NCBI GenBank assembly: GCA_017999915.1
Contig: JAGNKX010000008.1
Location: 1 to 64,000 of the forward strand
Source of the DNA: Spirochaetota bacterium
GTDB lineage: Bacteria > Spirochaetota > UBA4802 > UBA5550
Length of the DNA stretch: 64,000 nucleotides
Direction: 5' to 3'
Shown: one piece after another, positions 23,447 to 24,588 of the stretch
How the letters are laid out: every line of letters starts with the position of its first letter
Numbering within the stretch: position 1 is the first letter of the stretch
Position numbers and translations under genes: made by a program
Notes under the pieces: generated by a model
What the model saw: the letters and a program-made list of their open reading frames with translations, nothing else
Told to the model about the DNA's origin: nothing
The model's database searches: none

Positions 23447-24319
23447 TTACCGCGCGGCGGGAATATCCCTGTCCATCAGCCTGACCATCTCGCCGATCCT
23501 GCCCATGAGATCGCTGAACTTGTCCGGCTTGAGGGACTGCATGCCGTCGGAAAGGGCGCTGTCCGGGTCCGGGTGCACCTCGATCATGAGCCCGTCGGCG
23601 CCGGCCGCCAGGGCCGCCAGGGAGAGCGGGTGAATGAGCTTCCATGTCCCGGCCGCGTGGGAGGGATCGACCACCACCGGAAGGTGTGACTTCTGCTGAA
23701 GCACCGGCACCGCCGATATGTCCAGGGTGTTCCGGGTCTCGGTCTCGAAGGTGCGGATACCACGCTCGCACAGGATCACGTTCATGTTCCCTTCCGCGAG
23801 GATGTACTCGGCGCTCATCAGGAGCTCCACCACGGTGGTCATCATGCCGCGCTTCAGGAGCACCGGCTTTGACGCCCTCCCCAGCTTTTTGAGGAGCGAG
23901 AAATTCTGGCAGTTCCGCGCGCCCACCTGGATGATGTCCGAAAACTCCGCTATGACCGGGAGGTCGTCGGCGTCCATGACCTCGGTGATGACCGGCATGT
24001 TGTAGGCGTCGCCGGCCGCGCGCAGCAGCTTGAGGCCCTCGGCCCCCATGCCCTGGAACGCGTAGGGAGAAGTCCTCGGCTTGTACGCGCCGCCCCTGAG
24101 AACGGTGGCGCCGGCTTTTTTGATATGGAAGGCCGTTTCCATTATCTGGTCGTACGACTCGATGGAGCAGGGCCCCGCGATGATGCAGATATCCTTCCCT
24201 CCGATCGTAACGCTGTCATTGATCCTCACGACCGTTCTTTCCCTGTTGTCCCTGCCGGCAAGCACGTAGGGAACGGACGGCTTAACGGGCTTTGCCTTTG
24301 TCGCTGCTGCTGCGTTCAT
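23447..24319 (-). CDS. aroF: 3-deoxy-7-phosphoheptulonate synthase (DAHP synthase, type I-beta)
   Basis: 290 aa. It condenses phosphoenolpyruvate and erythrose 4-phosphate, the first committed step of aromatic amino acid synthesis. Signatures: [71 protein letters not shown] (metal-binding His) and [17 protein letters not shown]. It has only about 40 residues before the barrel, so the ferredoxin-like or chorismate mutase regulatory domain of related enzymes is absent. Control may therefore lie at the RNA level, which fits the leader peptide upstream. The start at 24319 has GGAGGA ahead of it. Confidence 0.95.
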
Positions 24320-24347
24320 ATGGTTCCTCCATTTTTTGATCGAACAT

Positions 24348-24377
24348 GAAAAAGGCCGCCTGGAGGTCCGGCGGCCT
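24348..24377 (-). terminator. hairpin with U-run just before the aroF ribosome site
   Basis: On the minus strand AGGCCGCC (24377-24370) pairs with GGCGGCCT (24360-24353) and is followed by TTTTT (24352-24348). This is a complete intrinsic terminator shape 29 bp before the aroF ATG. It may be the final terminator of the attenuator, or may act on initiation by hiding the ribosome site. Confidence 0.6.
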
Positions 24378-24404
24378 GGGATTATATGCGCGATAACACA
24401 CATT

Positions 24405-24450
24405 AAAAAGCCGCCGGCTTTCCGCCCGCGGCTTGTACCAACATCAGTGT
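24405..24450 (-). promoter_or_regulatory. attenuator terminator and switching region of aroF
   Basis: On the minus strand AAGCCGC (24434-24428) pairs with GCGGCTT (24414-24408), followed by a TTTTT run (24409-24405). AAAGCC-GGC-GGCTTT in the same segment offers an alternative tight hairpin. Just upstream, CTGATGTTG (about 24450-24442) is the exact reverse complement of CAACATCAG inside the leader peptide sequence (about 24517-24509), giving a 1:2 pairing. AGCCGC also occurs in the leader codons for Lys-Ser-Arg and could compete for the same GCGGCT. The arrangement is that of trp/phe-type attenuators. Confidence 0.7.
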
Positions 24451-24458
24451 CCGTAAAG

Positions 24459-24530
24459 CTACGAGCGGCTTTTATAAAAATAAAAGTACCAAAAGTAGAA
24501 ATAACGGCTGATGTTGCTGAGTGTTATCAT
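24459..24530 (-). CDS. aromatic leader peptide of aroF attenuator, 23 aa
   Basis: A 23-codon ORF begins at the ATG at 24530 and ends at TAG (24461-24459). Residues 10-19 are [10 protein letters not shown]: ten consecutive Tyr, Phe and Trp codons (four Phe, five Tyr, one Trp), followed by KSRS. A run like this is the hallmark of leader peptides that sense charged aromatic tRNAs by ribosome stalling. All three end-products of the pathway are sampled at once. The ribosome site is poor, and the leader may be translated from very near its 5' end. It lies 139 bp upstream of aroF. Confidence 0.82.
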
Positions 24531-24546
24531 GTTGAATAATTATAAT

Positions 24547-24588
24547 AAATAATTATTGGCAGTTAAACGCACGGGACATATTTGTCAA
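24547..24588 (-). promoter_or_regulatory. candidate promoter of the aroF leader
   Basis: On the minus strand TTGACA occupies 24588-24583. A 17-bp spacer places TAACTG as a weak -10. A TATAAT lies further down, just ahead of the leader ATG, and would give an almost leaderless leader transcript. Which one is used cannot be decided from sequence. Confidence 0.4.

Follow-up and report, generated by a model that had tools for sequence, protein, structure and literature searches.

A predicted ribosome-mediated attenuator with a mixed aromatic leader peptide upstream of DAHP synthase in uncultured Spirochaetota

Introduction

Does a short open reading frame (ORF) filled with aromatic codons, lying just upstream of a DAHP synthase gene in a spirochaete-like genome, form part of a transcription attenuator, and if so, which amino acids would it sense and how would it share control with the enzyme? 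For a long time, records of leader-peptide attenuation came chiefly from Proteobacteria, Actinobacteria and some Firmicutes (PMC2965389). A preliminary description of the 64,000-nucleotide stretch analysed here (the window, by which we mean the stretch at its full length) proposed an attenuator that senses tyrosine, phenylalanine and tryptophan at once and suggested that control may rest on ribosome stalling, the enzyme having no N-terminal regulatory domain. We followed up these proposals by comparative genomics, covariation analysis and simulated ribosome footprints. All coordinates are those of the window, and all features described lie on its minus strand.

Results

A leader ORF with ten aromatic codons

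ORF reading and homologous ORFs in 15 other genomes define a leader ORF of 23 residues (24459..24530), 140 nt 5′ of the DAHP synthase gene. Both the ORF and its run of ten aromatic sensor codons (24474..24503) are present where the preliminary description had placed them. The run is the only one of seven or more within the window, and resampling never produced ten aromatic codons in a row, either from the local 200 nt (20,000 first-order Markov resamples) or from the whole window (300 resamples). The leader is therefore, as in attenuators, rich in codons for the end products of the pathway it would regulate. Homologous leaders from the 15 further genomes carry clusters of 7–11 aromatic residues, YFWFYFY, YFYFWFFYY, YFSFYFYY and YFYFGYYF among them, so that the run is kept as aromatic while its exact sequence is not. 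Residues within the clusters vary yet are nearly all Tyr or Phe; selection thus appears to preserve aromatic coding and not any one peptide sequence. The distance from cluster to stop codon is 3–5 codons in all leaders except one (L002, on contig 104 of genome G010), where a T-run differing by one base in length puts a TAA stop 13 nt further upstream, whether through genuine variation or through a fault in the assembly.

No ribosome binding site was found 5′ of the leader ATG in the window, and initiation is possibly near-leaderless. A candidate −35 element, TTGACA (24583..24588), also occurs by eye 5′ of several relatives' leaders, and no good −10 element lies 17 nt from it in the window. An alternative candidate promoter, TTAACT-16-TATAAT (24539..24566, 10/12 in a consensus scan), would place the mRNA start at or just before the leader ATG, giving a near-leaderless transcript, and carries little weight because shuffled sequences average 1.0 such sites.

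Distribution of the leader

An enzyme search of 39 related genomes, read upstream of each match, returned aromatic leader ORFs at most matches. With a covariance model built from 13 leaders, and strong members defined by E < 1e-14, we obtained 16 strong members, all within the order of the window (16 of its 46 genomes), and none elsewhere among the 393 genomes of the phylum that were searched. Every strong member lies 5′ of a DAHP synthase, and the synthases with a leader form a single clade (support 100/99). When ~85,000 species were scanned with a degenerate DNA pattern of the core, 13 loci matched, ten of which have an aromatic leader ORF (nine labelled Spirochaetes, Spirochaetia or Spirochaetota, and G029, a genome of the same order); this range is a lower bound, as the exact pattern misses divergent copies and left the window's own record unmatched. 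The three other pattern matches, in Bifidobacterium, Rhodococcus and Flavobacteriaceae, show no aromatic leader and were taken as chance; weak covariance-model matches outside the order show none either. Within the window's own genome the covariance model found no second copy (next best E 0.035), and a pattern search found no convincing second leader among the other aromatic runs. Where these genomes encode a second, more distant DAHP synthase, it has no aromatic leader, and neither do the next closest enzymes outside the order that have enough upstream sequence; a plasmid comparison gave no match.

No Rfam family reached its gathering score, and T-box, trp leader and phe leader were not listed up to E 1. 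RcsR1, suhB and S15 matches were all sub-threshold and were rejected. The best of them, RcsR1, which we take to be one RNA with rnTrpL, reached 25.2 bits against a cut-off of 60. This match, far under the curated cut-off as it is, raises the idea that the terminated leader might also or mainly supply a trans-acting small RNA or a functional peptide, as rnTrpL/peTrpL of Sinorhizobium do, and terminated leaders elsewhere do act in trans (PMC7298713). Conservation here tracks cis pairing and the downstream gene, every strong copy found being 5′ of a DAHP synthase, and we consider a trans-acting role very unlikely.

Three mutually exclusive helices

The 286-nt leader folds with z = −6.67 relative to dinucleotide shuffles. 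Arm 1, CAACATCAGCCGT (24504..24516), lies within the leader ORF and pairs with the downstream part of arm 2, ACGGACACTGATGTTG (24439..24454); at the core of this helix 1:2, CAACATCAG (24516-24508) is complementary to CTGATGTTG (24447-24439), which bears out the earlier claim that a leader segment pairs with sequence after the stop. Arm 3, AAGCCGCGGGCGG (24422..24434), and arm 4, GCCGGCGGCTT (24408..24418), form the 5′ and 3′ sides of an intrinsic terminator with U-run, T1 (24405..24434), between leader ORF and structural gene, where attenuators have one. Its stem AAGCCGC/GCGGCTT followed by T5 had been recognized before (24434-24405). Overlooked until now was the antiterminator. The part of arm 2 that serves it, CCGCTCGTAGCTT (24456..24468), spans the leader stop UAG, and CCGCUCGUAGCUU (24468-24456, UAG included) forms 12 of 13 pairs with AAGCCGCGGGCGG (24434-24422), so that the final leader codons, the stop codon and the next bases stand against the 5′ arm of the terminator. 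The sole mismatch, in which the stop codon's A faces a C, recurs in every sequence. Since arms 2 and 3 are shared, helices 1:2, 2:3 and 3:4 are mutually exclusive.

All three helices are supported by covariation. In 13 sequences, 94.4% of the cells of helix 2:3 are paired compared to 41–57% in slid controls, with five pairs changed on both sides, and RNAalifold independently recovers 1:2 and 3:4 with 13 doubly changed pairs. In an alignment-free test, each arm was paired with the partner arm of its own or of another species and the difference assessed by 20,000 permutations. Own-species pairing was stronger than cross-species pairing for helix 1:2 (−21.0 versus −13.4 kcal/mol), helix 2:3 (−18.4 versus −15.3) and helix 3:4 (−22.0 versus −19.2), a difference reached by 0 of 20,000 permutations in each case and upheld at one sequence per genus. 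Relatedness somewhat inflates such own-versus-cross comparisons; it is argued not to be the cause because the control pairings 1:3, 2:4 and 1:4 gave no own-species signal in the same permutation test on the same sequences. The U-run that follows 3:4 is broken in a single family, f7, and termination there may be weak.

The preliminary description had named homologous loci without the aromatic run or the pairing as grounds for abandoning an attenuator; the comparison was made, and aromatic run and covarying stems turned out to be conserved. The same data refute the suspicion of coincidence, that an AT-rich stretch translating to Tyr and Phe happens to lie beside an ordinary terminator. Codons for Tyr and Phe are AT-rich, and six-codon aromatic runs in the genome are no commoner than a reversed-pattern control; set against conservation in 16 genomes, covariation and resamples devoid of ten-codon runs, this leaves coincidence a negligible probability.

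Ribosome position and the folding of the nascent leader

For each of the 16 sequences we simulated the switch with an energy model in which the bases under the ribosome could not pair and arm 4 had yet to be transcribed. With the ribosome stalled at the first aromatic codon, the nascent antiterminator had a mean probability of 0.97 (range 0.86–1.00). Stalls further along the run lowered this mean to 0.95 (third codon), 0.75 (fifth) and 0.25 (last), and a ribosome at the stop codon lowered it to 0.00; two other footprint sizes gave the same order. For the window, full-length equilibrium folding yielded antiterminator probabilities of 0.79–0.98 for stalls at codons 1–4, and of 0.00, with the terminator at 1.00, for a ribosome at the stop. 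Comparison of stalled and unstalled folds, which the preliminary description had proposed, thus gave in 16 of 16 computed cases the outcome characteristic of attenuators, an exclusive antiterminator freed by an early stall and masked when the ribosome occupies the stop codon. Because the antiterminator declines along the run, the model predicts the strongest effect for its early codons, which are mostly Tyr and Phe. Folded to equilibrium at full length, the leaders of most relatives prefer the terminator even with a stalled ribosome; the switch must therefore act kinetically, as in known attenuators. The nascent RNA of the window also prefers the antiterminator when no ribosome is present, a point against the model.

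Taken together, conservation in 16 genomes, covariation of three helices and the footprint simulation support the attenuator that had been proposed, and we hold with high confidence that the element upstream of DAHP synthase is a ribosome-mediated transcription attenuator. The locus shows every computable feature of an attenuator of the trp/phe/his type. How it would act on transcription can be modelled on the established trp/phe/his/leu mechanism, with computed footprints indicating the fold at each ribosome position and the codons indicating which amino acids are probably sensed. As RNA polymerase moved along the leader, a ribosome would be translating its 23-codon ORF. When charged Tyr- and Phe-tRNA (here also Trp-tRNA) are ample, the ribosome would reach UAG and cover arm 2, arm 3 could then not pair with arm 2, the 3:4 terminator would form and DAHP synthase would remain untranscribed. 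A shortage of any one of these tRNAs would stall the ribosome in the first half of the run, where it would cover arm 1 and break 1:2; arm 2, now free, would pair with arm 3 ahead of the synthesis of arm 4, and the polymerase would read on into the gene.

A second hairpin before the ribosome site

The second U-run hairpin noticed earlier is also present: arms 5:6 with T5 (24349..24377), seen in the fold and with weak covariation, end 17 nt 5′ of the TGGAGG ribosome binding site of DAHP synthase (24326..24331; ATG at 24319). Its loop contains CCUCC (24362-24366), complementary to that site. Eleven of 16 loci retain CCUCC, in a loop or a remnant, even where the hairpin is gone (f7). Pairing of 5:6 is strong in 9/16 loci and weak or lost in 7/16 (f7, L007 and L013), and covariation support for it is marginal.

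Control could be partly translational or two-stage if this hairpin gated the ribosome site or if a 4:5 helix relayed the switch to a second terminator. The retained CCUCC could pair with the ribosome site, and arm 5 could pair with arm 4 at up to about −25 kcal/mol. Against such arrangements stand permutation values for 4:5 that range, with the choice of arm limits, from p 0.008 to 0.07 (0.05–0.09 at one sequence per genus) and for the anti-SD:SD pairing of p 0.03 (0.11 at one per genus), the loss or weakness of 5:6 in 7/16 loci, and a computed access to the ribosome site that drops in the stalled state in several relatives, the opposite of what would be needed. We judge a translational or two-stage contribution unlikely. 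A chain model, in which freed arm 4 together with arm 5 opens the second hairpin, had been drawn by eye from long inverted repeats in several relatives; it was rejected for weak permutation support and access shifts in the wrong direction.

Tryptophan in a predicted mixed sensor

Tyr and Phe codons occur in 16 of 16 leaders, whereas a Trp codon, usually single and in the middle of the run, occurs in 11; in the window it is the fifth codon of the run. The earlier claim that all three aromatics are sensed therefore holds for the codons of Tyr and Phe throughout and for Trp in only part of the family. The same attenuator might effectively be a Tyr/Phe sensor in which Trp is merely tolerated and Trp shortage hardly matters. 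Five of 16 leaders lack the codon, trpE has its own WWW leader in the same genome, the aroR leader of C. glutamicum with its Phe-Tyr-Phe responds only to Phe limitation (PMC11802643), and the equilibrium switch of the window is weaker at the Trp codon (0.20 versus 0.98 at codons 1–3 with the default footprint). Yet equilibrium antiterminator probability at this codon ranges from 0.00 to 0.86 depending on the footprint (0.62–0.86 with larger ones), the nascent antiterminator still forms there (0.99), and Trp is kept in 11/16 leaders. We regard an effective Tyr/Phe sensor as a serious possibility while stopping short of favouring it.

DAHP synthase and its feedback domain

The gene downstream of the attenuator (23447..24319) encodes a type I beta DAHP synthase of 290 aa consisting of the catalytic domain only (NF006421, E 8e-132; Pfam PF00793). 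Its score of 439.5 bits against NF006421/TIGR01361 (curated cut-off 335) places it in type I beta, and it is the only type I beta or type II DAHP synthase detected in a 99% complete genome. The gene appears to stand alone, the likely neighbours on both sides being on the other strand. In the five genus-mates (G001-G005) neither this type of DAHP synthase nor type II is present, and the nearest relative of the enzyme belongs to another genus (G010, 80%); loss in the mates or transfer into the window's genome would account for this.

As stated in the preliminary description, the enzyme lacks the ~60-residue ferredoxin-like N-terminal domain of the T. maritima type (1rzm/3pg9), a domain established to bind Tyr and Phe in T. 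maritima: the enzyme aligns only from position 63 of the profile and position 64 of 1rzm. The domain is also missing in L002 and in five members of f7 (L009 aligns from position 70). Extensions of 50–60 residues are found in L003-L007, L010, L013 and L053, and that of L003 matches the T. maritima-type profile almost fully (positions 8-336). The tree is compatible with one loss of the domain or with two. While the absence of the domain from the window enzyme stands, the proposal that stalling took over control for this reason does not, since at least eight relatives bear the attenuator and keep the domain; the attenuator therefore did not arise as the domain's replacement. The attenuator accompanies enzymes of both kinds and thus complements feedback in general; where there is no domain it may bear a larger share of control. 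For the window, stalling may by itself suffice for control, though not in general. A bolder reading is that one leader peptide registers the charging of the tRNAs for Tyr, Phe and Trp at the pathway's entry step, with any shortage opening the gene, and that it provides the main end-product control of pathway entry where the enzyme has no feedback domain (window, L002 and f7). We offer this combination only tentatively and consider it somewhat doubtful.

Other leaders in the genome and family

In the window's own genome, trpE is preceded (L134; G000 contig 1, 5′ of trpE at 847873) by a leader MGRITSINKTIWWWRARTFR and then AAAAAGTGCGGCAGCCTGCCGCACTTTTTTT. With WWW and a terminator-like hairpin it is, by appearance, a classic Trp leader, and leader-peptide attenuation therefore appears to be used elsewhere in the organism. 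No leader was seen before pheA or tyrA in this genome, both genes lying inside an apparent operon.

Other genomes of the window's family carry a sequence-unrelated Phe/Tyr leader, for example MKNTANAAFALTEPKSFSFGYFYFYFHGNYIVV, before a different clade of DAHP synthases (L014, L016, L017, L019, L020, L022 and L025). Directly after its stop, GAGUUUUAUC pairs with GAUAAAACUC in the terminator loop, and post-stop GAGTTTTATC likewise pairs with that loop; own-species pairing was matched in 68 of 5000 permutations for 2:3 and in 144 of 5000 for 3:4. A model of this leader gave strong matches in only seven genomes, all of the window's family. That one family uses two such leaders for a single gene function points to repeated origin or very fast turnover.

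Discussion

The locus provides a comparatively well-supported attenuator in an uncultured lineage of Spirochaetota, placed at the first common step of aromatic synthesis, and adds an RNA family absent from Rfam. Its mixed sensor would work as an OR gate over the supply of Tyr, Phe and sometimes Trp. Some relatives keep the Trp codon and some do not, and the same is true of the feedback domain; this natural variation allows direct tests of how RNA and enzyme share control.

The mechanism is known, while the RNA family and the lineage appear new, as does the mixing of aromatic codons in a sensor at the pathway's entry step. Like E. coli trpL-trpE and pheL-pheA, the element combines competing 1:2, 2:3 and 3:4 helices with regulatory codons in the leader. 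Those leaders, however, respond to a single amino acid and precede branch-specific genes, whereas here mixed codons stand before the gene for the first common step and the stop codon itself lies within arm 2. In the thr and ilv operons, one leader carries codons for several end products of one pathway. These codons are for branched-chain amino acids and threonine/isoleucine, not aromatic ones, and the operons belong to Proteobacteria. Sinorhizobium RcsR1/rnTrpL (RF02552), the best-scoring Rfam family, is likewise an attenuator leader RNA with tandem GC-rich hairpins, but it is a trp leader of Alphaproteobacteria and its score (25.2 against a gathering score of 60) is far too low for membership. 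The closest precedent found in the open-licence literature is the aroR-aroF attenuator of C. glutamicum (Neshat et al. 2014), whose Phe-Tyr-Phe leader acts on Phe limitation only, as reported in PMC11802643, and also appears in PMC4046766; an earlier description may exist elsewhere, for instance in the 2010 survey by Lopatovskaya and colleagues, known here from its citation in PMC4833913. By its description, aroR-aroF shares with the present element an aromatic leader peptide and ribosome-mediated attenuation before a DAHP synthase gene; it differs in having one Phe-Tyr-Phe and a response to Phe alone, where the leaders described here, from another phylum, carry clusters of 7–11 Tyr/Phe(/Trp) residues.
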